Source: Candidatus Nitrosopumilus sp. (lineage in GTDB: Archaea > Thermoproteota > Nitrososphaeria > Nitrososphaerales > Nitrosopumilaceae). Taken from it: DNA of 64,000 bases. Below, piece after piece: positions 31,981 to 46,987 of this stretch (position 1 is its first letter; each line of letters opens with the position of its first letter). The position numbers and the translations under genes were made by a program. The DNA is taken from contig JAJCXK010000026.1 in the NCBI GenBank assembly GCA_029263475.1, positions 1 to 64,000 of the forward strand. Reading direction: 5' to 3'. A model generated the notes under the pieces. That model did no database searches. It was given only the letters and a program-made list of their open reading frames with translations, and was not told the origin of the DNA.

Positions 31981-31995
31981 ATTAATTGTTAAATG

Positions 31996-32067
31996 AGGTA
32001 CCCGAGGGAGTCGAACCCCCTTGTATAAGCTTTGCAGGCTCACGCATAACCGTTCTGCCAGAGTACC
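31996..32067 (-). tRNA. tRNA-Cys (anticodon GCA)
   Basis: A cloverleaf of 72 bases on the minus strand: acceptor GGTACTC pairs with GGGTACC, anticodon stem TGAGC/GCTTA with loop CTGCAAA (anticodon GCA), T arm GGGGG-TTCGACT-CCCTC, discriminator T as expected for tRNA-Cys. CCA is not encoded. Confidence 0.94.
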
Positions 32068-32423: not shown

Positions 32424-33185
32424 ATGACCTGGCATTTTGATTCCCACATACATTTATCAGATCCTGCTTATGCTTCTGATATGAAATTTATCTCAAAACA
32501 AATGGAATGTCTTAAGATTAAAGCATGTTGTGTGTCAACAAATTATGAAAATTCATTACAGACTTTAGAACTTGGGAAAAACAGTGAATTGATTTTGCCT
32601 TTTATAGGAATTCATCCAGAATTTGCAAATGATGATCTTGAAAATATGGTGAATTTAATTGAAGACAATCATGGTTCTATTTCTGGAATTGGTGAAATAG
32701 GATTAGATCCAACTTATGAAAGTGAATGTGAATGTGGTGATGTTGCAAGACAAAATCATGTATTTGAAACGTTCTTGTCACTAGCTGAAAAACTTAACAA
32801 ACCTGTCTCAATTCATTCACGAAAAAGCCTAGATGACGTTCTTCAAATCATGACTTCTTATAATCCAAATCGTGCATTATTGCATTGGTTTGATGGAAGC
32901 AAAAAGCAGCTACAAAAAGCCATGGATATGGGATTTTTTGTCTCCTATGGACCTGTCACGATTTATGCTAATGATAAGCAAACCTTACTCTCTAAAACCG
33001 ACGAATCTAAAATCCTTGTTGAAACTGATGGTCCCGTAAGATTTTCTAGATGTTTTGAAATGAAATCTGGACAAGTCAGCTTTATTCCCAGTGTGATTTT
33101 TTGTGCTTCAAAGATTTTGGATAAGTCCTTTGATGAAATGGCATCCTTATTGGAAATAAATTCAAAATCCTTTCTTGGAATATAG
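32424..33185 (+). CDS. TatD-family metal-dependent hydrolase
   Basis: The protein has 253 residues. FDSHIHLSDPAY supplies the first HxH metal ligands, then GIHPEFA, ISGIGEIGLDPTYE (Glu), VSIHSRKSL, LHWFDGS and VETDGPVRF (final Asp), in the TatD order. TatD proteins are 3'-5' DNases or other phosphoesterases. Beyond it the integrated element begins, so this may be the last core gene before the insertion. Confidence 0.87.
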   Translation: MTWHFDSHIHLSDPAYASDMKFISKQMECLKIKACCVSTNYENSLQTLELGKNSELILPFIGIHPEFANDDLENMVNLIEDNHGSISGIGEIGLDPTYESECECGDVARQNHVFETFLSLAEKLNKPVSIHSRKSLDDVLQIMTSYNPNRALLHWFDGSKKQLQKAMDMGFFVSYGPVTIYANDKQTLLSKTDESKILVETDGPVRFSRCFEMKSGQVSFIPSVIFCASKILDKSFDEMASLLEINSKSFLGI

Positions 33186-33241
33186 GTATCAAAATCCCTA
33201 CTTTTGCGGTCTTTTAATATATCCTCAGGACTATATCATTC

Positions 33242-34408
33242 GTGATTGATTACATCAATGAATTGTTGAATCGGGAGGAGTTTTTTGAGAAAATTTATGC
33301 AAAAAGCAATTCAAATGATTCAAGAAACGCCACACAATCAGCGATCATAAATCTTGATTTTTACTGTGAAGACGTTTACAAAAAAAGTTCTGATATGATT
33401 CTAAAAGATCTCAAAAAAGACCTGGATGGGACAAACAATCCTGGCAAAGTACTGCGATTTCTTGACAAATTCAATATTTGGCTAAGGGAAGATCATCCCC
33501 AAATTGTTCTTACAAACAAACGAAATCAGGCTAGAAGGCCACTAGAGGCCAAAAACCCTACATCCATCAAAAATTATTTCAGTAGAGTAAGAAAATTCAT
33601 GAAACTTTGCTATGGGATAAGGATTACTGATGATGATGTTAGGGATTACATTACATTTCCAGTGTCTGAATCAGATGATGAGGACGCAGAACCATTTGAA
33701 TCAAACGAACTTCGAAATGTGATAGATCACGCCAAGCCCAAACGAAAGACAATGTACATGTTCATGAAAGATACTGGTGCACGACTGATTGAAACAATCA
33801 GGATAAAGAAGAAAAATATTGACTTTACTCATGATCCACCAATTGTAACTTTTCCAAAAGGAATAGTAAAAGGAAAAACAAAAACTCGAATCAACTATCT
33901 TACAAAAGAAACTGCACCGCGTGTATCATTGTTAATCAAAAGTATGGATGATGATGATTTTATTTTTAGAGACAATAACCAACAAACAGAACATCAGGCA
34001 AGAAAGAATGAACAAAGTGCATTTCGTAGATTATGTGATAATCTGGGTTATTTGGAAAGATACGAACACAACAAGCGAAACAAGAAAAACATACACAGTA
34101 TTCGTGCATTTTGTTGTACAAAGTATGAAGAAGGTACAAACAGCGAAAGATTGGCACATGGATATATTGGCCATAAGAGATACCTTGAACAATATCTAAG
34201 ACAGTCCGATGAAAAAAAATCTCAAAAATTCAGACAAGCTGAATCCTATCTTTCATTATATGATAACATGGTAATTGTACAGGAAAACAAAGATGAAAAA
34301 ATGGATGCTATGGAAAAACAAATGGAATTGCAAGGTGTAATGTTACGAGAACAACAAAAGTTTATTGAACAATGGAAGAAAGAAAAAACTCCAGATATTG
34401 AAAACTAG
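33242..34408 (+). CDS. Tyrosine recombinase (integrase 1)
   Basis: The protein has 388 residues, starting TTG or GTG-like at 33242. Catalytic residues: Arg181 in KDTGARLIETI, Lys in the KGKTKTRINYL hairpin, His285-x-x-Arg288 in HSIRAFCCTKY, His in HGYIGHKRYLEQYL and its following Tyr. The N-terminal 130 residues form a SAM-like core-binding domain. The C-terminal 60 are a coiled coil (EKMDAMEKQMELQGVMLREQ). It lies 56 bases after tatD, reading away from it, as an element integrase near an attachment site would. Confidence 0.9.
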   Translation: MIDYINELLNREEFFEKIYAKSNSNDSRNATQSAIINLDFYCEDVYKKSSDMILKDLKKDLDGTNNPGKVLRFLDKFNIWLREDHPQIVLTNKRNQARRPLEAKNPTSIKNYFSRVRKFMKLCYGIRITDDDVRDYITFPVSESDDEDAEPFESNELRNVIDHAKPKRKTMYMFMKDTGARLIETIRIKKKNIDFTHDPPIVTFPKGIVKGKTKTRINYLTKETAPRVSLLIKSMDDDDFIFRDNNQQTEHQARKNEQSAFRRLCDNLGYLERYEHNKRNKKNIHSIRAFCCTKYEEGTNSERLAHGYIGHKRYLEQYLRQSDEKKSQKFRQAESYLSLYDNMVIVQENKDEKMDAMEKQMELQGVMLREQQKFIEQWKKEKTPDIEN

Positions 34409-34442
34409 TTTTTGAATTCAATTAAAATAAATCAAAAAATAA

Positions 34443-34802
34443 TTATTTCTTTTTTATGGTTATTCCATGTTTTTTATAAAATATCTCGTTCTGTTTTTTC
34501 TTTAATTCCAACCTTGTCTGTCTTGTCAGATTTTCTTCAGCACTTGTAGCCCATTGACCGAAATATTTTGTAATGTCTTTTTCTGAAAACTTTCCATTTC
34601 TAATTAAATCTGCTAAAACTGTATCCATCGATTGTTTTTTCCCAGATTGAATACTCAAATATTCATTAATTGCTTCTGTAGCAAATTGAGCCTTTGAATG
34701 ATAACCTAATGCTTTTGCCGTATCTGTTTTAAGCCATTTGTCTAATCTTCCCCAAAGATTTGCATTGATTTTTACTGGTTTTTGACTTGATTCCCCTTGC
34801 AT
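34443..34802 (-). CDS. Ribbon-helix-helix-type regulator of the element
   Basis: The protein has 119 residues. KINANLWGRLDKWLK, then YHSKAQFATEAINEYLS, fits a ribbon-helix-helix DNA-binding fold, followed by a helical C-terminal half rich in Lys. It is divergent from the small-gene/primase operon, and copies of GTATCCTA lie in front of both starts. It probably represses itself and the replication operon, as copy-number regulators do on plasmids. Confidence 0.7.
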   Translation of the reverse strand: MQGESSQKPVKINANLWGRLDKWLKTDTAKALGYHSKAQFATEAINEYLSIQSGKKQSMDTVLADLIRNGKFSEKDITKYFGQWATSAEENLTRQTRLELKKKQNEIFYKKHGITIKKK

Positions 34803-34876
34803 AGTATCCTATAGGGATCATCTTACATTAATACTCTTTTTCATCTCTAGGAATCCTCAAGGTAATGTTTAATATC

Positions 34877-34898
34877 TAGGATACCTCTTAGTATCCTA
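34877..34898. promoter_or_regulatory. Operator: TAGGATAC / GTATCCTA inverted repeat
   Basis: TAGGATAC (34877-34884), six bases, GTATCCTA (34891-34898), ending on the first base of the ATG of the small gene. A third exact copy, GTATCCTA, is at 34804-34811 beside the RHH start, and a looser TAGGAATCC lies at 34849-34857. This is a good candidate binding site for the divergent RHH protein. Confidence 0.7.
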
Positions 34899-35062
34899 TG
34901 TCAAATCCCAATAAATTTTGGCCAACAAAAATCAAAACATATGACAAATTACGTGCTAGTAAATTTGTAGGTGAAGCCCCAAAACCATACACTAGTTTAC
35001 AAGATCTAGTATGTGCAGTTGTTACCGAAAAACTAGACAAGTTGGAGAATTCAAAAAATTGA
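34898..35062 (+). CDS. 54-residue protein, first gene of the replication operon
   Basis: The frame from ATG 34898 to TGA 35060-35062 encodes 54 residues (start MSNPNKFWPTKIKTYDKL, end VVTEKLDKLENSKN), hydrophilic and basic with one cysteine. The operator overlaps its start. The next gene begins at a TTG overlapping its stop, which supports translation. Family unknown. Confidence 0.55.
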   Translation: MSNPNKFWPTKIKTYDKLRASKFVGEAPKPYTSLQDLVCAVVTEKLDKLENSKN

Positions 35063-35226
35063 CTTCTCAACAATACGTGCCAGATTATACTTGTCCACAT
35101 CCAAATCCAAAAGAATTTTCTATTTTTGATTGGTTGGGTTCTAAAATTAAAATACATCTCTGTGCGGAATGTCAAAAAATTCCAGAATTTTCTGAAGTTT
35201 TGAAGCGTAAAGGAAATTCTGAATAA
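35059..35226 (+). CDS. Small protein with possible zinc site
   Basis: The product has 55 residues from TTG 35059, which overlaps the previous TGA; the frame is open upstream to 35011, but that part overlaps the first gene. Cys and His residues (YTCPHPNP and HLCAECQK) can form a C-H-C-C zinc site. It lies two bases before the next gene. Function unknown. Confidence 0.55.
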   Translation: MTSQQYVPDYTCPHPNPKEFSIFDWLGSKIKIHLCAECQKIPEFSEVLKRKGNSE

Positions 35227-35228
35227 TA

Positions 35229-35429
35229 ATGCCTCATAGAATTGGATTTGATTTTACAATGGATGATGTGATTCATACAGCCCTTGAAGTTGCAGAAAGG
35301 GTATCCATAACAAAGGAAAATTCTATAATGGAAATTCCAATTGCCGGAAAGTTGATTCTTAATTTCTCTGGAGAGGAACGTCGATCCATAATAATTGAAA
35401 TTGATGAGGAAAAAAATGAACTGTCGTAA
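35229..35429 (+). CDS. Small acidic protein of the element
   Basis: The product has 66 residues (start MPHRIGFDFTMDDVIHTALE; core AGKLILNFSGEERRSIIIEI), with an N-terminal helix and a C-terminal beta hairpin and no cysteines. It is two bases from the upstream gene and in the same operon as the primase. No family recognised. Confidence 0.55.
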   Translation: MPHRIGFDFTMDDVIHTALEVAERVSITKENSIMEIPIAGKLILNFSGEERRSIIIEIDEEKNELS

Positions 35430-35473
35430 TTTTTGTTTCAGTTTAAGGAAAAAAATAAAACTTGAAGAAGTGA

Positions 35474-35686
35474 TTGGACCCTTTCTTCAAGTCTCTAAAA
35501 CCAACCTCGGAGTTGATGTTATTGTCATATGACGATCTGCAAATAAATGATTCTGATCTAATTTTGTGTGAATACTGTATTAAACTGAAAAGACGATCAA
35601 AAAGATTTGTTTCGGTTCACGCCAAAAAATGGCATCTAAAAAATATCCATGAAAATGAAAAAAATGTTCAGGAGTTTGGCTTCTGA
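35474..35686 (+). CDS. Single C2H2-type zinc-finger protein
   Basis: The product has 70 residues from a TTG. The C-terminal half has LCEYCIKLKRRSKRF, then HAKKWHLKNIHEN: a CxxC followed by a helix with His residues, as in C2H2 fingers of archaeal viruses and plasmids, with a basic patch between. It overlaps the next ATG by one base. Probably a DNA-binding accessory protein of the element. Confidence 0.6.
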   Translation: MDPFFKSLKPTSELMLLSYDDLQINDSDLILCEYCIKLKRRSKRFVSVHAKKWHLKNIHENEKNVQEFGF

Positions 35687-35829
35687 TGGTTGTCTGTTCT
35701 TGTTGCAAAAAATCAATAGACGTTGTTACAGAAGCAAAACAAAAATTTACTCGACTTGGAAATGATTACTTTCATTCAAGATGTTATGTTCACATGATAA
35801 ATAATTCTAATTTGATGGAGTTTTGCTAA
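35686..35829 (+). CDS. 47-residue Cys-rich protein before the primase
   Basis: From ATG 35686 (overlapping the previous TGA) to TAA 35827-35829, just before the primase ATG at 35830. It has CSCCKKSIDV near the start and HSRCYVHM in the middle, a CxCC...HxxC set that could bind zinc. Perfect fit between two genes with no spare bases supports it being real. Confidence 0.6.
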   Translation: MVVCSCCKKSIDVVTEAKQKFTRLGNDYFHSRCYVHMINNSNLMEFC

Positions 35830-38025
35830 ATGTCTGAAAACAAAATTGACTATGTAAGAAAATTCAGAAATGGGTTTTCATTTAATGTCATTCCGATACG
35901 CAATGACAAAAAGGCAATAGCTGACTCTGAATATTCAAAGTGGTTTTCAGAGGTTTATGATAATCCAATTGATACAAAAAACATTGGTGTTGTTCTTGGT
36001 AGAACTTCAAATAATCTTGTCTGTTTTGACATTGATGCTCATGAATTGTATTCTTATCTAAAACATTGGGAAAATAGGACATTGATTGTAAAGTCTGGAA
36101 AGAAGGGATATCATGTTTATTTCAGATTGATGGAACTTCCGAAATTCAATAATGCAAATATGATAAAAGATGGCAAAACCATCGAATTCTTTGCACAAAA
36201 GCGACTCATGGTCTTACCTCCGTCATTTATTGAGGATGAAAGCATTCAACCTTATGGGATTATCTCAGATATTGAGCCTAAGTCTATCTCAAGAATAGAA
36301 TTCGAAGGAATCTTTCAAAAACTCAAAGATGATGGATTTAAGATTGAGCTTGGAGGACAAACTGAAAATAATCTCAGAATTGAAAAAGCCAAAAAATCAA
36401 CTAATGACCTGAAAAGTGAAGATTGGCCTGAAGGGTGTAGATATCCTAATGGTCGTGATTTGGCACTAAGAAGATTTCATGAGGGATGGGATTATGATCG
36501 AGTGCAACAAGAGGCATTAAAGAAAAATGGCACTTTGAGTAATCCTGCTGACTATGACCATGTAATAGAATGGGTCGATGCAGGACAATCCATCTTTGAG
36601 AAAAACCAAGAGGAAAACAATAGTTTTTTCAAATCAACTGAAGAATTTCAGAAGCAGAAAATAAAATCAAACACTGATGAAAAAGATGTGATTGACAATA
36701 CTGCATTAGAGATAATGAAAAATCAAAAATTCATTACATTGAGAAAAAGTGAAGAGACACTAACCCATAATGGGAAAATTTACAGTAAGGATGATGCAGA
36801 AAGTATCATCAAGGAAGAGACTGAAAAAATTATCTTCAATTGCAGTACCCATGAAAGAAATGAAGTTGTAAACAAGATCAAGGTTCTAACTTATGTGAAT
36901 ATTGAGGAATTTGACAAGGATCCGAAATTGATCACTTTGGAGAATGGGATTTTAGACTTGGAAATATTGCAATTAAAAGAACACACACCAGAACATCTAA
37001 GTCGTGTGTTATTGCCTGTACAATATAATAATCCAAAATATGAGATTAAAGAGAATACAATTTTTGCAGACATTGAAGAAAATCTCAAAGATACCTTGTT
37101 TTGGAAATTTCTTAAATCGTCCTTTACAGTTGATGGAATTTTCAGAAAAAAAGATTTTGAAACCATTCTAGAAATGATGGCATCCGTATTTGTTAAAAGA
37201 CAGATTGATGACAAGGCATTCATGAATTTGGGTAAGGGTGAAAATGGAAAATCTGTGTTGCTTGAATACGTTGAATCATTTCTGGGAAAAGACAACGTAT
37301 CGCGCATTCCATTACAGGATATAACAGAAGATCGATTCATGTGTGCTGAACTTGATGGCAAATCCGCCAATATCTTTACGGATCTTGAGCAGTACGAACT
37401 AAGGAGAACAGGTAAAATCAAGGCAATAACTTCTGGTGAGGGAATTCAGGTACAGAAAAAGCATCAGCACCCCTTTGAACTGTATCCTTTTTGCAAACTG
37501 ATGTTTTCATGCAATCGATTTCCCAAAGTCTATGACCAAACACAGGGATTTTTCAGAAGATGGATAATCATTCAATGGGAAAGAAACTTTGAGAATGATT
37601 CTCAAAGAAACGAGCATCTTGAGGAAAAATTAATGTCAAATCAAGATGAAAAGAATCTTGTTTTTTCATGCCTAATTCATTTGTCGAGGAATTTAAACCA
37701 AAATGGCAGATTCACTCATTCTAAGGACTGGAAAACCATTCAGCAAGAATGGAATGCAAATGCAGATTCCATTGATGATTTTGTAAATAATTACATTATT
37801 GACAGTGAAAGCAATACGTCAGTTCGAGAAACTTATCATTTTTACAAGGATGTCATGCTTGAAAAGAGTGAAACTCCTCTCACCATAGGCAGATTTGGTA
37901 AATCTTTTGCAGAATATTATGATCAAGACAGGGTCAAGGAATCTGGTAAAACAGAACGTGTATGGCTGAACATTGCCCTCAAAAGATCTGTTCAGACATC
38001 GATGGAGCATTATGATCATGCCTGA
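35830..38025 (+). CDS. Primase-polymerase / SF3 helicase replication protein
   Basis: The protein has 731 residues. The N-terminal 180 resemble the Prim-Pol domain (VVLGRTSNNLVCFDID, then VKSGKKGYHVYFRL with catalytic acid and His). After a linker, residues 468-475 (GKGENGKS) are a Walker A, followed by NIFTDLEQYE (motif B) and LMFSCNRFPKV (sensor/motif C) of a superfamily 3 helicase with a D5-type start. Combined, it would prime and unwind the element's replication origin, like RepA-type proteins of pRN1-like plasmids or P4-type phages. Confidence 0.87.
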   Translation: MSENKIDYVRKFRNGFSFNVIPIRNDKKAIADSEYSKWFSEVYDNPIDTKNIGVVLGRTSNNLVCFDIDAHELYSYLKHWENRTLIVKSGKKGYHVYFRLMELPKFNNANMIKDGKTIEFFAQKRLMVLPPSFIEDESIQPYGIISDIEPKSISRIEFEGIFQKLKDDGFKIELGGQTENNLRIEKAKKSTNDLKSEDWPEGCRYPNGRDLALRRFHEGWDYDRVQQEALKKNGTLSNPADYDHVIEWVDAGQSIFEKNQEENNSFFKSTEEFQKQKIKSNTDEKDVIDNTALEIMKNQKFITLRKSEETLTHNGKIYSKDDAESIIKEETEKIIFNCSTHERNEVVNKIKVLTYVNIEEFDKDPKLITLENGILDLEILQLKEHTPEHLSRVLLPVQYNNPKYEIKENTIFADIEENLKDTLFWKFLKSSFTVDGIFRKKDFETILEMMASVFVKRQIDDKAFMNLGKGENGKSVLLEYVESFLGKDNVSRIPLQDITEDRFMCAELDGKSANIFTDLEQYELRRTGKIKAITSGEGIQVQKKHQHPFELYPFCKLMFSCNRFPKVYDQTQGFFRRWIIIQWERNFENDSQRNEHLEEKLMSNQDEKNLVFSCLIHLSRNLNQNGRFTHSKDWKTIQQEWNANADSIDDFVNNYIIDSESNTSVRETYHFYKDVMLEKSETPLTIGRFGKSFAEYYDQDRVKESGKTERVWLNIALKRSVQTSMEHYDHA

Positions 38026-38160
38026 AATAGGTGACATTTTTAGTTCATTAATTTTTCTGCTTAGGTTTTTTCAAATATACTACTATGATAACAGTGAAAA
38101 AAGTTCTCAGCTAAAAATGTCACCTATTTTTTCCATCACAATTTATCAAAGTGAGGATCT

Positions 38161-39081
38161 ATGACTGCAGTAGAGCAAAAATTAGATGAAATACTCTCTG
38201 ATCTAGACGTAATCAAAAACTATCTAAAAATAGTACCTAACAAAAATTCTAAAATTACTGATATGAAAGCAAGTATATCTGAATATGAAATATTTGCAAA
38301 GACTGAACTAAAACTGGATGAATCCACGATAACCAATCATCTTTCTACAATCTCAAAGTTTCTTGTACATTCCAAAGGAGTAATCACAAAAGATACCGTG
38401 AAGCAGTATCTGGAATCAAATGATTCTGGGTCCTGGAAGTCAAATCAGGTAAAGGCACTGAGAAAATATATCCGAGACTATCTTAAACTTGGAAACTGGA
38501 TTGAGGAGTTCAAGTTCGCAAAGACCAAAACCAAGATAAAGGAAATTCCATCTGATGAACAATTGGTAAAATTCTGCAGTTTGCTTTCATATCCAGTACA
38601 GATGATATTTCTTGTACTGCATAGTTCGGGACTGAGAATAGGTGAGGTACTTAGTCTGAAAGTAAGTGATGTTGACTTTGATGATAATTCCATAGATGCA
38701 TCAAAAATACATGAAGGAACCACAAAGTCATCATGGGTCAGTTTTATCACCAAACAAACAGCAGAATTTCTTGCTAGCTACATGAATGATCTTGATGAGG
38801 ACCAGAAAATATTCTCAATTTCACAAAGGTCCGTACAACAAGAATTCAAAAACATATCTGATATCATGGGTTTGTCGCTAAATCCTCATCTTCTAAGGAC
38901 CGTATTTGCAGAAAAATGTACTACTGCTGGAATGAAAGACAAGTACATCAATGCGTTATGTGGCAGGGTGTCACAAGGGATACTTGCCAAGAACTACAGC
39001 GATTATTCTCCAAAGTCTCTAAGAAATCAGTATGATGTAGCAGAACCATATCTGACGTTAGATGGCATAACGTCGCAGTGA
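38161..39081 (+). CDS. Tyrosine recombinase (integrase 2)
   Basis: The protein has 306 residues. Catalytic set: Arg159 in HSSGLRIGEVLSL, Lys in the hairpin near KSSWVSF, His243-x-x-Arg246 in NPHLLRTVFAEKC and the Tyr region in LAKNYSDYS. A core-binding domain spans about residues 35-110. It is unlike integrase 1 in sequence. It points at a 390-base inverted-repeat zone shared with integrase 3. It may resolve element multimers or integrate. Confidence 0.88.
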   Translation: MTAVEQKLDEILSDLDVIKNYLKIVPNKNSKITDMKASISEYEIFAKTELKLDESTITNHLSTISKFLVHSKGVITKDTVKQYLESNDSGSWKSNQVKALRKYIRDYLKLGNWIEEFKFAKTKTKIKEIPSDEQLVKFCSLLSYPVQMIFLVLHSSGLRIGEVLSLKVSDVDFDDNSIDASKIHEGTTKSSWVSFITKQTAEFLASYMNDLDEDQKIFSISQRSVQQEFKNISDIMGLSLNPHLLRTVFAEKCTTAGMKDKYINALCGRVSQGILAKNYSDYSPKSLRNQYDVAEPYLTLDGITSQ

Positions 39082-39472
39082 CTAGTTTCTTGCTACATTA
39101 TTTCTTTGAGTTACTATATGAGATAACTTTGCTACTAAAACCATCAATCATCTAGTATCTCTTGTAGCATGCTACAACTGTCGCTACTACAATTCGCTTG
39201 TCGCCATATCTGTCGTGAGTAGCAATACGCTACATAATGGAATCGTCACACATGAAATTGTACTTGTAGCCATAATATCTACAAGTAGTTCGTAACTAAA
39301 CAAAAATAAGCGACAAACCTGTCACAACACTACTACCTGATACGTGAAAATACCCTCGATTTAGTGCGTGATTATTAGATACGTTTCTTCGTAATCCTAG
39401 TTAGGATTACGCAAGAGTAGACAATGTATTGATACTTGAAAAATTTATCCAACCTTTTCTCAGAGATACAAA
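39082..39472. repeat. Inverted-repeat zone between two convergent recombinases
   Basis: This non-coding stretch is full of GCTAC/GTAGC words. Clear dyads: TTGTAGCATGCTACAA at 39162-39177 (perfect 16-base palindrome), GTAGC-5-GCTAC at 39219-39233, TACTTGTAG-9-CTACAAGTA at 39261-39287, and CGTAATCCTA-2-TAGGATTACG at 39390-39411. Such clustering beside recombinase genes fits a recombination site with arm and core sites, or an iteron-type origin. The last dyad may also end transcription. Confidence 0.75.
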
Positions 39473-40669
39473 TTACATTATCATTTTAGTTTGAATGTTT
39501 TCAATAATGAACTCTGGTGACATTTCACCATAACTATTCTTTAACTCATCAATTGTATGCCATCCCCCAATCTTTGCAACTATGCCATAGTTGTAGCCAG
39601 TCTTTTCAAGCCAGTAATGCGCTCCAATGTGTCGCAATGCATGAAATGAATTTGTGTAGAAATAGTCATCTGTCTTACCGACATGCTTGTAAATCTCTCT
39701 TAGATTATCTCGTAGTTCAATTGTTTTGGATTCTATGTTAGAATGATCTTCGATAATTCTTGAAAATCCTTTTGATTTATGTCGCTTCAGACTTTGCTGA
39801 GTATCCTTTCTGGTTACGTACTTGAGCCATTGACCATTCTTGATATAATTTGTCTTGGATTCGACAGCCTTCATGACAAATATTGTGGTGTTTTTATCGT
39901 TGTTCTTTTGCTCAATCCAGTCGCATTTCATGTTGAGCAATGCCGTCTTTCTTGAGCATGACTCTACACCAATCCAAAAGACTCTGAAAATATCCGAATC
40001 TTTTCCCCATTTTTTCTTGATGAATCTATTTGCAATCATTATTTCATCTTGCGTAAATCTGATGTGTGAGTATTTGCCGTGACCTACTATCTTTCCTGAC
40101 ATGATGCTTGAAGTTCCTCTTGGCCAGGATATTCCATGAAAGGCACAAAAACTTCGCACTGCCATAACTCTTGTGTGGATTACTCCTTCTAATGATGACT
40201 CAAAATCAATATTTTTTTGATTTCTAATCGTGATTTCTCCTGTCTTGTACATCTCTGCAAAATTCTTTACAATCTTTTCTGTGGTTTTTCTGTCAACGAT
40301 AAGTTGTTCAGCGTTAATTCTACACTTGTTGCACAAGAATCTCAAACTGGAAAGCAAATTCTTCCATGTTCTTATTGGCATGCCGTTTCTCCTGGAGCGT
40401 AGGTCTTCCACCCACTCCTTTACAAGAAGATCGTCTACAAACTCGTTTTTCTCCAAAAATACATAATCTTGCAACTGTTTAGTCTGTTCTGAAATCATTT
40501 CTCTTCCATTTTCATCAACTTTTATCATGCCTAATTCTATTGCAATTTTTCGATATCTGAACATGGTTTCTAGTCCCATACCTGTTTTTTGCTTGATTTC
40601 ATCCCATGTCATTGGAATTCTTCTTTGAAGAATGCCGTTATGTCTGAGTCTTACGATCTCGTTTACCAT
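39473..40669 (-). CDS. Tyrosine recombinase (integrase 3), 5' end frameshifted
   Basis: The protein has 398 residues from ATG 40669. The C-terminus has FHALRHIGAHYWLEK (HxxR), AKIGGWHTIDEL (His/Trp) and NSYGEM (probable nucleophile Tyr); the first catalytic Arg is in SCSRKTALLN. Near the start, TWDEIKQKTGMGLETMFRYR is a helix-turn-helix-like part. Upstream of 40669 the frame stays coding-like (KCTRKRLYGRRATVGD) up to 40761; with one A fewer in the run at 40758-40763 it would start at ATG 40766 (MKNLSLIQNEIEIDLQ). Confidence 0.8.
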   Translation of the reverse strand: MVNEIVRLRHNGILQRRIPMTWDEIKQKTGMGLETMFRYRKIAIELGMIKVDENGREMISEQTKQLQDYVFLEKNEFVDDLLVKEWVEDLRSRRNGMPIRTWKNLLSSLRFLCNKCRINAEQLIVDRKTTEKIVKNFAEMYKTGEITIRNQKNIDFESSLEGVIHTRVMAVRSFCAFHGISWPRGTSSIMSGKIVGHGKYSHIRFTQDEIMIANRFIKKKWGKDSDIFRVFWIGVESCSRKTALLNMKCDWIEQKNNDKNTTIFVMKAVESKTNYIKNGQWLKYVTRKDTQQSLKRHKSKGFSRIIEDHSNIESKTIELRDNLREIYKHVGKTDDYFYTNSFHALRHIGAHYWLEKTGYNYGIVAKIGGWHTIDELKNSYGEMSPEFIIENIQTKMIM

Positions 40670-40835
40670 ATCTCCAACTGTGGCCCTTCTTCCGTAGAGT
40701 CTCTTTCTTGTACATTTTTGAAGATCAATCTCTATTTCATTTTGTATTAATGACAGATTTTTTCATGACAGAATTTTGTTAAAAGATACGTAGTTTCATT
40801 GAATTGTTAATTTTGTATTCTCAAATGGAATCACA

Positions 40836-40859
40836 CAATAATCCTAGGTATGATTATTG
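40836..40859. repeat. 24-base dyad with CCTAG core (second copy 41695-41718)
   Basis: CAATAATC, eight bases, GATTATTG at 40836-40859; the same arms with a near-identical core (CTAGTTAT against CTAGGTAT) occur at 41695-41718. The two copies bracket the secreted-protein gene at 41002-41664. The dyad at 39390-39411 has the same AATCCTAG core, making a family of three. Confidence 0.75.
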
Positions 40860-41001
40860 GAATCTGACTGTTGAGAACTATGACTGAAATTAAAAAATTT
40901 GAACCCTTTTTGATGCATATTTTGTGGTATGATGTATGGACACGTACTTGAAATCCGAGTGTTTTCTTTAATAATGCTTGAAGACGTCTATATTCATCAA
41001 T

Positions 41002-41664
41002 ATGGATAACCCTTCAAAAATAATCTTATTTGCTTTTCTGATTGCCATGTTTTCCACTTCTTTTGTTTTTGATCAAAGCACTCTTGCATATCATGAAGAA
41101 AGGCAAAATGAAGACTTTATGAAATATTATAGTGGACTGATGAATCTTGATGAGACTGTCGGAATCCAGATACCCACAATTGAAAAACAATATCTTGTAC
41201 GTGTGTCGTTGCAAGAAGAATCTGGACTGACAAATTCGACTGCTAATGTTGCTTACGATTATACCATGTTGGAGAAAATATCTACAAAGTTAGTAGATAG
41301 ACCGTTTTATGCCGTGGGAAATGATGCCAAAGAATCAATCAAAATTACGGATGAGGTGAATTTTGATTTGGATGATATCACGTTTCCACATCTTGTTAGT
41401 TTTCCCATTATTTTTGATGTGCCTGGAGTCTACAGGGAATCCATTTACACAACAGTCTATGAATCTGGTAAAGATAAATCTGGTTCACGACACAATGGGA
41501 TTGTTGCCGTGGTATCTGAATACAGCAAAGCAATGGATGAAAATGGACATTGTAAAAATAAATATTTTGAACCCCTTCCAAAACATGACTTGTCAACGGT
41601 CATATGCGTATCTCCGTACGTATCTCATGAATTGATCACACGAGGATGGTCACTGATGCCATGA
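41002..41664 (+). CDS. Secreted protein of unknown function
   Basis: The product has 220 residues from ATG 41002, which gives a signal peptide (KIILFAFLIAMFSTSFVF, cut near TLAYHE). The mature part is beta-rich, with late cysteines in GHCKNKYFE and TVICVSPYVS. It is bracketed by two near-identical 24-base dyads. A TTG at 40978 in phase would add eight residues. No family recognised. Confidence 0.6.
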   Translation: MDNPSKIILFAFLIAMFSTSFVFDQSTLAYHEERQNEDFMKYYSGLMNLDETVGIQIPTIEKQYLVRVSLQEESGLTNSTANVAYDYTMLEKISTKLVDRPFYAVGNDAKESIKITDEVNFDLDDITFPHLVSFPIIFDVPGVYRESIYTTVYESGKDKSGSRHNGIVAVVSEYSKAMDENGHCKNKYFEPLPKHDLSTVICVSPYVSHELITRGWSLMP

Positions 41665-41887
41665 TTAAACCAATTTTGACACGTTAAGGTATTCCAATAA
41701 TCCTAGTTATGATTATTGAATTGTAACTATTTTCTATGTGTGACTATTGTTTCCAGTTCTGTTATTCGGGTAACATGAATTATTCATTTTTAACAATAAT
41801 TTCATAGTTTATCAATCTCGATTTTATTTATAATCTTGATGAAATGTTTGAAAATTAAATGATGAGATATAGTAAACAGGATTTAGA

Positions 41888-42232
41888 TTATGGTGATATT
41901 ATTTTAATGGCAATCGTAGTAATTGCTGTAAAAATAGAAGCTATTGCATATGGCTTAAGGGTATCAAAAACAGATGACAACTTATAAACTTCAACGTCAG
42001 TAAGACCTTTTTTCTCAAGTGCGTTTTTTAAATTATTCATCTCATGTTTCGATTTTAATGCTGCAGTTCCAGTAAAACTATCGCCATGTGCAGGAGTTGT
42101 GGCATCACTGTATTTTGTGAAATTTGTTTCCTCTGCAAATCTTACACCTGTAACTTTTTTAATTTCTCTTTCAAGTTTTTTTACGTTAGAACTGTTATGT
42201 TTACCGATGAATTCTACCAATATTTCGCCCAT
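41888..42232 (-). CDS. Small protein with C-terminal membrane span
   Basis: The product has 114 residues. The start (MGEILVEFIGKHNSSNVKKL) suggests a small alpha/beta domain; the C-terminus is a hydrophobic helix (LKPYAIASIFTAITTIAIKI). It lies 14 bases after the gene at 42247 on the same strand, so the two form a pair. Function unknown; a small membrane effector is possible. Confidence 0.55.
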   Translation of the reverse strand: MGEILVEFIGKHNSSNVKKLEREIKKVTGVRFAEETNFTKYSDATTPAHGDSFTGTAALKSKHEMNNLKNALEKKGLTDVEVYKLSSVFDTLKPYAIASIFTAITTIAIKIISP

Positions 42233-42246
42233 TTTTTGGACTCAAC

Positions 42247-42537
42247 TCACGAACAAGGATTGCCATTATTTGTAGGGGAACAATGACAATTTACTTTTGA
42301 GATGCCCAATATTTGAGCAAGTTTCCCTCTACTTTCATCTAATTGATGTTCAGTTATTCTTTCTAAACGAATTACAATGGATGGCGTATTCTTACCAATA
42401 CTTGATTTTTTATTTACTTTGTGAACAGATTTGAAACCAGGTATTCGTCTAGCAGAAACTAGAAGGACACGAAGTATGGCCAAAAAATGACCATCAACAT
42501 ACCAAGTACTGTTCATAAAATCAGGCATACATTTCAT
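42247..42537 (-). CDS. Small protein paired with 41888-42232
   Basis: The product has 96 residues, with a hydrophobic N-terminal part (FLAILRVLLVSARRIPGF), a charged middle and a Cys-rich end (VNCHCSPTNNGNPCS). It precedes the membrane-tailed protein by 14 bases. Neither is recognised. A toxin-type pair cannot be shown. Confidence 0.5.
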   Translation of the reverse strand: MKCMPDFMNSTWYVDGHFLAILRVLLVSARRIPGFKSVHKVNKKSSIGKNTPSIVIRLERITEHQLDESRGKLAQILGISKVNCHCSPTNNGNPCS

Positions 42538-42865
42538 CCGTTACTAGATAAACAATCCTGTCTGAAAATCATAGTAAGCATAAGATTGTTGAGGTTGGAA
42601 AATAAATGTAATGGATAAAGAGTTAACCATGGGAAACAGATCTTTGTTGTCTTTATATGTTTTAACACTTATGATTGAATAATCTACAAAATTTGTAATC
42701 ATTTTGTGTTTTTTGTAAGAAATATGTGCTTAAAAAAATTTGTCTATGTTGGAGTTCAAAATAAGGTCATTGTCATTTCTCAAACACATGCTCAGACTTG
42801 CACTCCAAAATAGATTTCCTAATTATTTGATACATTAAATCTCTTGAATAATTAAATAATTGATA
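42538..42865. other. AT-rich gap with no feature seen
   Basis: No coding frame, tRNA or clear dyad was found here on either strand. The stretch is AT-rich and probably holds the promoter for the minus-strand pair at 42247-42537. Confidence 0.4.
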
Positions 42866-43102
42866 TTATACAATTTTAGGTTTAATTGTATTGTTTAAGG
42901 TAAGTGTGGGAGGAGGGATGTTTTCTCCATATGTCTTAATTATAGAATAGGTTCGCTCAAAAATATTTCTGCATTCTATAATTATATTTTCCAATTCCGA
43001 TTTTTTATCTTGATACCACTGCTCTGTATTTTGTCCATCAATAATTCGTGCATATCGTCCAATTTGTTCATGGGGATAAGTAGAATTATTTTTAATATAA
43101 AT
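42866..43102 (-). pseudogene. Decayed ORF in front of the OLD gene
   Basis: A minus-strand frame of 78 residues with good coding character (HEQIGRYARIIDGQNTEQWY, then ELENIIIECRNIFERTY) has no start codon. Directly upstream in the same phase is a TGA (43103-43105), beyond which the frame again looks coding-like for about 25 residues to a TAG. This resembles the end of a gene that acquired stops. Family unknown. Confidence 0.4.
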
Positions 43103-43220
43103 TCAAAGATGTGTTATGTCCTGATAAGTAATGATTTGTTTAATGACATCTTCTAGTAAATAATGGAATTTCTTCTAATTTGTAGAAAGTATTATGACCT
43201 CCTTCAGTTTTTATCTTATT

Positions 43221-45164
43221 ATGAAATTAATTGAATTAAAACTAAAAAATTTTAAAAAATTTATGGATGTAACTATTCCATTAAACCGTTCTCTAACTGT
43301 CTTTGTTGGACGTAATAATGCTGGAAAAACTAGTGTGTTACAGGCTATTGGTTTGGCATTGGATGTTCCAATTTCATTTACTGGGAAATATCTGAATAAA
43401 AAATGTGGTGATACAGGTACTTCTGAAATTAAATTATTTGTTCAGCTTACTCCTAAAGAATGGCTTAATGCAATTCATTTAGTTCAATATGATGTTGAAA
43501 CTACTGATGTAAATCTTGAACAATTATCTGAACGTGTATCTGTATTTCAAGTATCTGTAGATAGAATAATTTCATACGTTGACGGTATACAGACTGAAAA
43601 TAGAAAAATAATTCAATTACCAAATAAAGAATCATTAGAGTCTCTAGACATTTCGGAACAAAGAATTATTACTTTAGCCGTTGCTAGATTGCCTAATCAA
43701 AACCTCTCGATTTTTTCGGGAACGTTACATATTCCCGTAGAGAGAAAATTTAGTAAATCTGAATCTTTTATTCCCTTTGATAACTTAGTTGGAAGAAATG
43801 ATTATCAAGAATTAATTCGAAACATTTTATATCATTTAAAAAGAAAACGACCCGAAAAATATGCTGAATTAATTGAACAAATTACGAGTGTTTTTGAAGA
43901 TATAGATAATATTGATACGTCACATAACGAAGATAGTGGACAAATAAATTTCACTCTTAGACAAGAAGGAATCCCTGCAGATGTGGGGGAAATGGGTAGT
44001 GGAATTCAATCTGTCATCTTAATTCTGTCACAAATTCTGTCTCCAAATAAACGATTAGCTCTTTTAGATGAACCTGATGTTACTTTGCATCCCGGGTTAG
44101 TTAAACAACTTGTAGATTTTTTAAATGAAATTTCAAAAGATACACAAATAATTATCTGCTCTCATAATGAAACTTTTGTTAATGTCTTAGACAGATCAAA
44201 TATCTTACAAGTAAAAGGTGTTGATAGTTTAGAATCTACTGTCGTTGAATTAACTGAATCTAGTCAAGAGTTGGAAATTTTAGAAGATCTAGGTGTATCC
44301 ATGCAAAATTTTGATAAAGCTGAAGCTGAAACAAGTGAAGTGATTTTACTAGTTGAGGGTTCTACGGATTGGCATTATCTAAAAAAATTATTTAATATAA
44401 CAAAAATTTCACAACATCATAAATCTATCAGGATTAAAGAATTTCCATTACATGGAAAATATAGGAAAATAGATTCAAACTTACTGGATGAGATTAAAGG
44501 TTCAAGAACTCCCTTTTTATTGATTCGAGATAGAGATGAATCTTCTATTCCTGAAATTAACAAATATCATGAAACTTTGGGCGAAGACAGAGTTCATTTT
44601 CTTAGTAAAAGAGAAATTGAAAATTATACATTGGATTATGATGCAATATTAAAAACAATATTGGAAAAATCAAAATCAAAATCCTTAGAAATACAATCTG
44701 TTGTTAATAGATTATCTAAAGAAGGTGTAGCTGTTAAGGTAAAAGAACTGTCTACATCACTCATGCAAAAAGTTTTGTTGTTACGGTTGATCCATAATAT
44801 GCCTTTTAAATTACTAACATTCCCAGAATTAGGTGATTTTGTAGAAAATAACTTAAACAAAAATATTGATGAAATTGTGGGTTATTTCTCTACAAATTTA
44901 CTAAATAAAATGTTAGAATTAAATCCTCAAAAAATCAAAGACTTTCTAACTGAAGAAAATCAAAAACTTGAATCTGAATGGAATGATGAAAATTTCTTAA
45001 ACATATGTCCTGGTAAAGATCTTCTTAAATTAATTAATAAATGGACTGCCAAAGATTTTGGAATAAACATAACTTGTGATGATCTAATAGACAATTTAGA
45101 TAATGTTGATAATGATATTGCTAAACTTTCTGAAAAAATAATCAAATTGGGAAAAACATCATAA
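43221..45164 (+). CDS. OLD-family nuclease (ABC ATPase + TOPRIM)
   Basis: The protein has 647 residues from ATG 43221 (MKLIELKLKNFKKF is the typical start). Walker A is GRNNAGKT at residues 30-37, the signature region is GEMGSGIQSVILIL and Walker B LALLDEPDVTLHP, then SHNETF. The C-terminal half starts a TOPRIM domain: VILLVEGSTDWHYL (Glu) and LLIRDRDESS (DxD). OLD nucleases act alone or with a GajB-type helicase (Gabija). No such partner gene is adjacent, so this is a class 1-like solo OLD. Defence or DNA repair is likely. Confidence 0.87.
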   Translation: MKLIELKLKNFKKFMDVTIPLNRSLTVFVGRNNAGKTSVLQAIGLALDVPISFTGKYLNKKCGDTGTSEIKLFVQLTPKEWLNAIHLVQYDVETTDVNLEQLSERVSVFQVSVDRIISYVDGIQTENRKIIQLPNKESLESLDISEQRIITLAVARLPNQNLSIFSGTLHIPVERKFSKSESFIPFDNLVGRNDYQELIRNILYHLKRKRPEKYAELIEQITSVFEDIDNIDTSHNEDSGQINFTLRQEGIPADVGEMGSGIQSVILILSQILSPNKRLALLDEPDVTLHPGLVKQLVDFLNEISKDTQIIICSHNETFVNVLDRSNILQVKGVDSLESTVVELTESSQELEILEDLGVSMQNFDKAEAETSEVILLVEGSTDWHYLKKLFNITKISQHHKSIRIKEFPLHGKYRKIDSNLLDEIKGSRTPFLLIRDRDESSIPEINKYHETLGEDRVHFLSKREIENYTLDYDAILKTILEKSKSKSLEIQSVVNRLSKEGVAVKVKELSTSLMQKVLLLRLIHNMPFKLLTFPELGDFVENNLNKNIDEIVGYFSTNLLNKMLELNPQKIKDFLTEENQKLESEWNDENFLNICPGKDLLKLINKWTAKDFGINITCDDLIDNLDNVDNDIAKLSEKIIKLGKTS

Positions 45165-45346
45165 CAAATCTAAAACTTCCATAATCTGATCAATGGTGGT
45201 CTAAATTCACTTTTACAATGAACTAAAACCTAGAATCTTTGTTTAAACTCACTTCAATCACGTGCTAAAACCAGGGGAATGGAGGCAAATCAGCCATGTC
45301 CCTCGAGGGAATTTCATTAAATTTTTTAAATATTGGGCGTCAAAAT

Positions 45347-45384
45347 TTTGGATTCGAACTTTATCGTGGCAGGTCCGGTCGAGT
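45347..45384. repeat. 38-base direct repeat (second copy 46496-46533)
   Basis: Both copies read TTTGGATTCGAAC, a variable middle, then CAGGTCCGGTCGAGT; 33 of 38 bases agree. They bracket the channel-like gene at 45450-46406. A 12-base palindrome, TCCCTCGAGGGA, lies just before the first copy (45299-45310). They could be remnants of an insertion or a duplicated regulatory site. Confidence 0.7.
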
Positions 45385-45449
45385 CCGTAAATTCATTTTT
45401 CATGAATGCTGAGTCTTGATTTATAATCCTAAAAAACGATCTTCTTGTA

Positions 45450-46406
45450 TTGAAATCCGCATTTTTATTTTATGGGGTACTCATGTCCATTCTATTTTTA
45501 CCGCTTCTCGACGAATCTTGGGCTCAAGAATCATCAAATACCGATCCTTTTCCAACAACATATGATTCTGGGATCAGCTTGATGAACATTGGAGAAATTG
45601 ACAAAAAAGCTGGAACCTATTGGATGGACTTTTTCTTTTACATGGAGTCTGACTCCGTAGATTTTACTCAAGACATTCCTGAAATCGTTTTCATGAATGC
45701 TAGGGATATTGAAATAGACGAACCTCACGTTACGCCAAACTATTTTGAAATCCGAGTTAAGGGGGACTTTGCCACCAAATTAGACTTTGAAAAATTCCCT
45801 TTTGAAAAACATGATTTGGTTATCGAGATTGAACCAAAATTACCACATGATACAAGTAAGTTTGTTTTCAGAGAGAATCCTGAAAATTCAATTGACTCCG
45901 AAATGAAAATATCTTCAAATTTGAAAATGTTTGATTCTGATGCTAAAACTACCTCTCATACGTATTTTGATGGATTGGAGTTTTCTAGAATTGTAGTTAC
46001 TTATACCGTTGGACCGGAACCTTTTGGAAGTGCATTCAAAACATTTCTTCCTGTAAGTATTATAGTTGGAATTTCTCTAATAATATTTTTCATCCCTGGA
46101 CACTATACCCCTAGAATTTATCTTACTGCTCCCTTGTTGCTTGCGGCAGTTTACTGGCATCAGAGTAGTCTGGCACATTTACCTGCACTTGGCTATGTTA
46201 CAAGTTTTGATAAACTAATGATCTTGTACTATCTTCTTTTTGTAAACAGCATTCTGTCTTTGGCTATTCAGATGCGAGTTTCTGAAAAAGACAAAAATGA
46301 CATCCGTGTAAAAAAATACAATAAGATTTTTACATTTTCTACAATTGGACTGATCCTTTATGCGTTAGTTCGTATTCTGACAAACGAAGATACTTGGTCT
46401 GTATAA
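45450..46406 (+). CDS. Pentameric ligand-gated ion channel-like (Cys-loop superfamily) protein
   Basis: The protein has 318 residues. A signal peptide (MKSAFLFYGVLMSILFLPLL) precedes a beta-rich domain with YWMDFFFYME and the FPFEKHDLVIEIE stretch, which matches the FPFDxQ-type motif of pLGIC ectodomains. Four hydrophobic segments follow in pLGIC order: FLPVSIIVGISLIIFFI, a second with LTAPLLLAAVYWHQS, LMILYYLLFVNSILSLAI, and a last one near IGLILYALVRIL. The Cys loop is absent, as in prokaryotic members. Ion selectivity and ligand cannot be inferred. Confidence 0.65.
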   Translation: MKSAFLFYGVLMSILFLPLLDESWAQESSNTDPFPTTYDSGISLMNIGEIDKKAGTYWMDFFFYMESDSVDFTQDIPEIVFMNARDIEIDEPHVTPNYFEIRVKGDFATKLDFEKFPFEKHDLVIEIEPKLPHDTSKFVFRENPENSIDSEMKISSNLKMFDSDAKTTSHTYFDGLEFSRIVVTYTVGPEPFGSAFKTFLPVSIIVGISLIIFFIPGHYTPRIYLTAPLLLAAVYWHQSSLAHLPALGYVTSFDKLMILYYLLFVNSILSLAIQMRVSEKDKNDIRVKKYNKIFTFSTIGLILYALVRILTNEDTWSV

Positions 46407-46642
46407 TTTCTGATGTTGATTGTGACTGATGGGTTTCTCTCTCAGGCATGAGTCATGTCTGAAATTCTTTAATGATGTTAAATTTGGACACGATTTTTGG
46501 ATTCGAACCTTATTGCCACAGGTCCGGTCGAGTTTACAAACGTGTATCTGTTATGTAGGCTTTGAACTAAAATCAGAAATCCTTCTCCCTGTATTGTTTC
46601 GATTTCTTTAGATTCATAATAAACCTGAGCCCAAAGTTTGAC

Positions 46643-46861
46643 ATGGTTTGTAAGGGTACATGTGATAGATACAAGGCTGGTAAACCGTTTGGAATTAATG
46701 GACGATATGGGATTGGACAGAAAAGATGTTCGATATGTGAAATTTTCATGAATTGGGACGGTAAACATTGTCCATGTTGTGGTTATACATTAAGAACAAA
46801 GCCAAAGGGAACTCAGACCAGACAAAAATTAATGATAATACAGCAAATAAGAAGAATCTAA
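46643..46861 (+). CDS. Thaumarchaeal zinc-ribbon protein
   Basis: The product has 72 residues. CKGTCDRYKA, then GQKRCSICEIFMNWDG and HCPCCGYTLRTKP give three CxxC-like pairs separated by basic residues. This pattern recurs as a multi-copy family in Thaumarchaeota. It is basic overall, so nucleic-acid binding is plausible. It lies alone between the channel-like gene and rps17e. Confidence 0.75.
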   Translation: MVCKGTCDRYKAGKPFGINGRYGIGQKRCSICEIFMNWDGKHCPCCGYTLRTKPKGTQTRQKLMIIQQIRRI

Positions 46862-46987
46862 ACCTCTCTATGATTAATTGCACATTACATTACAAATTGT
46901 AAAAAACTTCTTTTGGGCTTGTGACTGTATACTGGCTCATTCTTTGCCAGTTATAGGTATAAAATACCCCCATCCTTTAGACGACCA

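Follow-up and report, generated by a model that had tools for sequence, protein, structure and literature searches.

We analyzed a 64,000-nucleotide stretch of contig JAJCXK010000026.1 from a Candidatus Nitrosopumilus sp. (hereafter, the window; contig C26 of our source genome G000, a Nitrosopumilus-like genome). An integrated island of 13.8 kb in it, at 33181–46960, is a known kind of integrated element that carries an apparently unreported gene-cassette system. The island encodes three tyrosine recombinases, and the second of them, the Xer-like Int2, is directly followed by a short palindromic site similar to dif. Together, Int2 and sites of this kind are likely to make up a system of mobile cassettes that has an Xer-like recombinase dedicated to it and that differs both from integrons and from pdif (dif) modules, which host Xer proteins recombine. 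We also favor, with somewhat less assurance, a broader proposal: that Nitrosopumilaceae possess a third gene-cassette system, in which a mobile, self-contained Xer-like recombinase works on 11-6-11 sites, the 6-bp spacers form genus-wide compatibility classes, and the sites provide ordered slots for cassette exchange between elements and species.

The site was recognized by comparing the DNA downstream of Int2 homologues, which share a palindrome with the core CRTAATC-N8-GATTAYG, the invariant 7-bp half-sites standing 8 bp apart. About 180 exact sites define a full site of 28 bp with an 11-6-11 layout, in which the arms TTTCRTAATCY and RGATTAYGAAA enclose a 6-bp spacer. In a relaxed scan that allowed core spacers of 7–9, the spacer was 8 in nearly all cores of Int2 loci. 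Across the genus, about 190 exact cores were found in 22 of 95 congeners, with 2 to 41 per site-bearing genome; with the pattern reversed, the scan returned a single palindromic match. Several genomes from other genera of the family have sites as well, and beyond the family only singletons were seen. We rejected the idea that the palindromes are general host repeats, because 120 kb of host control loci hold 0 cores at a match of at least 13/14. Carriage of the sites by viruses was also rejected, as four spacer classes had no match in viral contigs.

The spacers recur far more often than shuffling allows. Among the 172 sites listed in the spacer table there are 69 spacer types, against at least 157 types in a column-shuffled control whose largest class had 5 members. 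The largest real class, CTATACAA, has 25 sites in 13 genomes; others are CTATCTAA (18 sites, 8 genomes), TGTAGTTA (14 sites, 7 genomes), TTACTATG (13 sites, 8 genomes), CTAATGGA (12 sites, 7 genomes), and CTTAGGTA (7 sites, 7 genomes). In 770 testable same-spacer pairs, both flanks were similar in 0, one flank in 14, and neither in 756. The classes are therefore not relics of array duplication, an explanation that we discarded. A conserved set of spacers fits a region of strand exchange, and an operator would have no need of such a set. A locus in another genus of the family (G268:C13:32778–37091) has five sites of the same kind, with the usual end order of TTACTATG, CTATACAA.

Homology between loci tends to break at the sites. 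When loci were aligned with each other, 23 of the 303 alignment ends coincided with a site in both partners, compared to a mean of 0.054 and a maximum of 2 in a null of 500 circular shifts. Two contigs of genome G071 are 99.7% identical over 1,924 bp and then diverge at the site end, and a G071 locus resembles one in G032 (92% over 1 kb) up to a site, where the similarity stops. Four whole cassettes could be matched with all four of their ends at sites. One of these is shared by the source genome (contig C54) and G016, with one bounding site inverted and the spacer of the other kept. These sequence comparisons are strong support for recombination at the sites. A typical cassette consists of one or a few open reading frames (ORFs), and the commonest families among the 149 cassette ORFs that were scanned are response regulators (8), histidine kinases (5), and DUF6659 proteins (4); two ORFs each come from the cobalt transporter subunit, multicopper oxidase, methyltransferase, AsnC, and OLD-type ATPase families.

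The position of the sites points to Int2. They lie downstream of Int2 in 10 of 12 Int2 loci, as arrays whose copies are separated by one or a few genes, and two of the ten (L271 and L275) were fetched after the motif had been defined. Sites are present in six of seven Int2-positive genomes versus 16 of 88 without an Int2 match (Fisher p 5e-4). Where contigs carry exact sites, the distance from an Int2-type gene to a site downstream is about 0.1–1.2 kb, and other integrases are found at irregular distances on either side.

Int2 (38161–39081, + strand; PF00589, 49.1 bits) is closest to the XerA family, NF040815, with 97.6 bits; this is below the curated cut-off of 220, so Int2 does not qualify as a XerA orthologue. 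The score against the integron integrase IntI (TIGR02249) is 36.8 bits, for a cut-off of 265. The AlphaFold model (pLDDT 85, pTM 0.58) has XerA structures in the PDB as its best matches by Foldseek E-value, with the integron-integrase structure 2a3v ranked below them. In the alignment of Int2 homologues, R159, K189, H243, R246, R269, and Y279 are invariant, with Arg269 at the usual His/Trp position, and by sequence conservation Int2 thus has the catalytic R, K, HxxR, and Y of an active site-specific recombinase.

The following mechanism is proposed. Int1, the first recombinase, would join the element to the chromosome by crossover at the 9-bp sequence TATAGGTAT, and the island would be an integrated plasmid-like element whose excised circle is presumably replicated by its Prim-Pol/SF3 protein. 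Int2, the adjacent accessory region, and the primary dif-like site would form the cassette platform, followed by genes parted by more copies of the site. Int2 most likely binds the 11-bp arms, with strand exchange taking place within the spacer, and therefore sites with equal spacers would recombine. Pairs in direct orientation would allow a cassette to be excised or inserted, and pairs in inverse orientation would flip it; cargo genes would thereby be swapped between elements, within and between species. From the sequences, we infer that Int2 is the catalyst, that spacer matching is the rule of compatibility, and that the system is active at present.

Several observations weigh against this proposal. 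In the window, the only exact site is the one next to Int2, and the two further candidates are degenerate. A conserved 60-bp tail past the core was dropped as a defining part of the site, since a profile built without the window sequences gave a non-significant E of 0.2 in the window. Most of the genomes compared are metagenome-assembled genomes, in which fragmented assembly can put contig ends at repeats. Two Int2 loci, L107 (source genome, contig C10) and L113 (G071:C29), have no canonical site downstream; their Int2 subfamily is 51–53% identical to Int2 and may use different arms, and a search for alternative sites there gave nothing convincing. Finally, sites exist in genomes without any PF00589 gene, namely 11 in the complete genome G022 and 7 in G110, so that some arrays appear to be stranded or served by a recombinase in trans. 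Six of the 11 sites of G022 are within 20 kb upstream of tatD (G022:C1:1612916–1632583; L242 and L243), a stranded array.

The array of the window itself is small. The palindromes after Int2, at 39390, 40837, and 41696, were absent from the earlier note on this DNA, which was made from the sequence alone. Site 1 (CTTCGTAATCC-TAGTTA-GGATTACGCAA, 39387–39414; like the other sites, it is given without strand) directly follows Int2 and matches the core at 14/14, its exact 22-bp core being 39390–39411. Sites 2 (CAATAATCCTAGGTATGATTATTG, 40836–40859) and 3 (CAATAATCCTAGTTATGATTATTG, 41695–41718) are probable sites that match the core at 12/14, site 2 with perfect 10-bp arms. The Int3 gene lies between site 1 and probable site 2, and for this reason we take Int3 to be a captured recombinase; sites 2 and 3 enclose a single ORF, encoding a secreted-type protein of 228 aa (40978–41664, + strand) that few congeners have. 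These two genes are probably the cassettes of a small, partly degenerate array. For the window only, it is possible, though doubtful, that the island is an ordinary cryptic element that gathered recombinases, with chance palindromes at 40837 and 41696 and with Int3 no cassette. Matches of 12/14 do occur 6 times in the 120 kb of control DNA (about once per 20 kb), and none of the five Int3 homologues compared has sites nearby. Chance, however, would have to produce two near-identical 24-bp palindromes (84% identity over 37 nt) with exactly one gene between them, next to a site 1 that is exact and directly follows Int2.

The earlier note suggested that one of the recombinases resolves multimers. 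Could Int2 and its adjoining site instead resolve dimers of the circular form, as cer or dif do, with the arrays a by-product of site sharing among elements, as pdif arose from dif? Int2 is Xer-like, its 11-6-11 site is dif-like and shares its element with a replication protein, and xerA has been reported absent from thaumarchaea (PMC2958812). We nevertheless regard this as unlikely, since Int2 loci hold several sites with different spacers rather than one, one-gene cassettes recur between genomes, and the place of Int2 relatives at the head of site arrays would be left unexplained. That the sites are the substrate of another recombinase, of Int1 or Int3 type or encoded somewhere else in the cell, with Int2 no more than a linked gene, would agree with the 16 site-bearing genomes that have no Int2 match, two of them lacking any PF00589 gene, and with the other integrases on many site-bearing contigs; it is improbable given that only Int2-type genes consistently have a nearby downstream site and that the five Int3 homologues compared have none. 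Palindromes that are regulatory operators, terminators, or miniature transposons would suit the intergenic position of the sites and the T-rich tails that follow some of them, but exact spacer classes recur in unrelated flanks, homology breaks inside the palindromes, and a longer repeat unit or target duplication is absent around them, which makes this explanation very improbable.

A dedicated cassette system built on Int2 can be compared with those already described. Integrons are known from archaea (Ghaly et al. 2022, PMC9668308). As in integrons, a tyrosine recombinase gene lies by a primary site, after which small cassettes with varied mobile cargo are lined up in an array with recombination sites between them; a primary site with a downstream array was found at the 10 site-bearing Int2 loci. 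Int2, however, is not an IntI-family integrase with the extra domain, as its TIGR02249 score indicates, and the short palindromes with class-specific spacers differ from attC sites, which are longer, folded as single strands, and have R and L boxes and a GTT triplet. Unlike in integrons, cassette orientation is mixed, and the integrated element that carries the platform has a replication gene of its own. In the pdif modules of Acinetobacter plasmids, recombination is performed by the host XerC/XerD. As far as general knowledge and the abstracts on these modules go, they too consist of genes between 28-bp 11-6-11 dif-like sites with differing spacers that are exchanged among plasmids, and the sites flanking mobile genes here have that same form. 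Host chromosomal XerCD acting at a host dif does not fit the present case. Here the recombinase gene at the head of the array is a dedicated, Xer-like one, the 11 sites of G022 are in a genome that lacks any PF00589 gene, and xerA is reportedly missing from thaumarchaea (PMC2958812). The archaeal XerA/dif system of the same report is the closest to Int2 by recombinase family and matches in site geometry, but it has one chromosomal site and resolves dimers, whereas site-bearing genomes here have 2–41 sites, mostly in mobile DNA. Cryptic integrated elements (CIEs) of thaumarchaea share with the island an integrase, a ribbon-helix-helix (RHH) protein, a primpol-S3H fusion, short att repeats, and an insertion point in intergenic DNA or at the 3' end of a gene; cassette sites or arrays are not described there (PMC6563490). 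The open-access papers that we searched report no cassette system of the present kind and no pdif-type system in archaea; integrons in archaea and the pdif modules of Acinetobacter were found instead.

Ammonia-oxidizing archaea are among the most abundant marine microbes, and their gene exchange is poorly known. If the proposal is right, a cassette system carrying regulators, sensor kinases, multicopper oxidases, metal transporters, and defense-type ATPases would account for much of the strain-to-strain variation. It would be an archaeal counterpart of the gene-shuffling integrons of bacteria, with cassette capture in archaea having arisen on the basis of an Xer-like recombinase instead of IntI, and could be a source of archaeal tools for exchanging cassettes at several sites. 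With the site pattern, genomes and metagenomes can be scanned immediately.

The ends of the island are well defined. The 9-mer TATAGGTAT is the only one common to both junctions: attL (33181–33189) includes the TAG stop codon of tatD, and attR (46952–46960) is followed by TATAAAATA, upstream of the gene for ribosomal protein S17e (identified by sequence reading). Neither these cores nor the element as a whole is assigned a strand. In relatives, the S17e gene begins about 33 bp past tatD, an adjacency present in 9 of 9 long syntenic loci and in 21 short loci, and the empty site CTTGGAATATAGGTATAAAATACCCCC is present in 21 relatives. Because the core holds the tatD stop and precedes a TATA-like sequence of the S17e gene, insertion left both genes intact. 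The search for empty sites that the earlier note had suggested thus fixed the ends; its element at 33242–40766 is indeed integrated but larger, the attR position placing 40766 inside it. That note had also named the scattering of the genes among different elements in relatives, with no unit ever excised, as evidence against its reading. Gene combinations do vary among relatives, yet empty sites exist. With a tyrosine integrase, flanking direct repeats, an empty site, and no recognizable capsid or conjugation genes, the island belongs among the thaumarchaeal CIEs. A tandem or nested second element was rejected since there is no third att core inside, and the tRNA-Cys gene (31995–32067) was rejected as the target since the break falls after tatD. 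Rfam gave nothing above any gathering score within the island.

The gene content largely agrees with the earlier note, which described three unrelated tyrosine recombinases (two convergent), a Prim-Pol/SF3 protein, tiny proteins, some of zinc type, and no structural virus genes. We, too, obtained no recognizable hit to a structural virus gene. The recombinases are Int1 (33242–34408, + strand; PF00589, 35.5 bits), Int2, and the convergent Int3 (39473–40669, − strand; 19.8 bits, below the curated cut-off, with catalytic residues conserved across its family). They are not all unrelated: Int1 is distantly related to Int2 (hhalign 98.3%, E 2e-14), whereas Int3 does not align with Int2. Int1, with R181, K210, R216, and Y318 conserved and H285 nearly invariant, starts 53 bp inside attL. 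An integrase gene next to an att site is the usual arrangement, and from this position Int1 is probably the integrase that the earlier note expected one of the three to be. The succession of an Int1-type gene and Int2, with order and direction unchanged, is also found in L107 of the same genome and in L113, L114, L117, and L118. The third recombinase had been suspected of driving inversion or of belonging to a nested element; we saw no sign of the former for Int3, and the missing third att core speaks against the latter.

More distant Int3 homologues (about 36% identity) belong to units that resemble proviruses and have a packaging-ATPase-like gene (L108 and L280). One such unit, of 14,067 bp, is present twice at 99.99% identity in the complete genome G083, at 81729–95795 (L280 from 11730 into L281) and 1856133–1870199 (L282/L283). 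An Int3-type recombinase is encoded close to the right end; the unit also holds the packaging-ATPase-like gene and a 339-aa capsid-protein candidate, and looks like a provirus. A related unit is in contig C48 of the source genome (L108).

The left part of the island begins, after Int1, with an RHH-like small regulator (34443–34802, − strand) recognized by sequence reading, with weak similarity in L140 and no Pfam hit. Opposite to it in direction are five small ORFs (34898–35829, + strand), two with CxxC-type motifs; that at 35474–35686 has homologues in three other elements (L119, L170, L178). Palindromic repeats of AGGATAC/GTATCCT type at 34803–34900, between the divergent genes, are a possible operator. 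The Prim-Pol/SF3 helicase protein follows (35830–38025, + strand; TIGR01613, 137.6 bits, with D5_N and DUF5906 hits), and between its gene and Int2 there is a 32-nt inverted repeat (38025–38129; 84% complementary, 41-nt loop), possibly a terminator or origin. The accessory region between Int2 and site 1 (39082–39389, no strand) has 8 GTAGC/GCTAC motifs versus 0.3 expected, and these motifs are also enriched in L114 and L115.

Past site 3, two small ORFs precede cargo genes that are all on the + strand. The OLD-type AAA ATPase/nuclease (43194–45164; AAA_15, 82 bits) has a distant homologue within a cassette of L197. The 72-aa zinc-ribbon protein at the right end of the island (46643–46861) has homologues in L114 and L177; these are encoded in cassettes, by genes whose ends lie 17 nt ahead of a site. 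Between them lies the gene of a ligand-gated-channel-like protein (45450–46406; TIGR00860, E 1.2e-6, below cut-off), with near-copies of a 45-bp sequence (GGATTCGAAC..TTAT..CAGGTCCGGTCGAGT) on either side, at 45340–45392 and 46497–46540.

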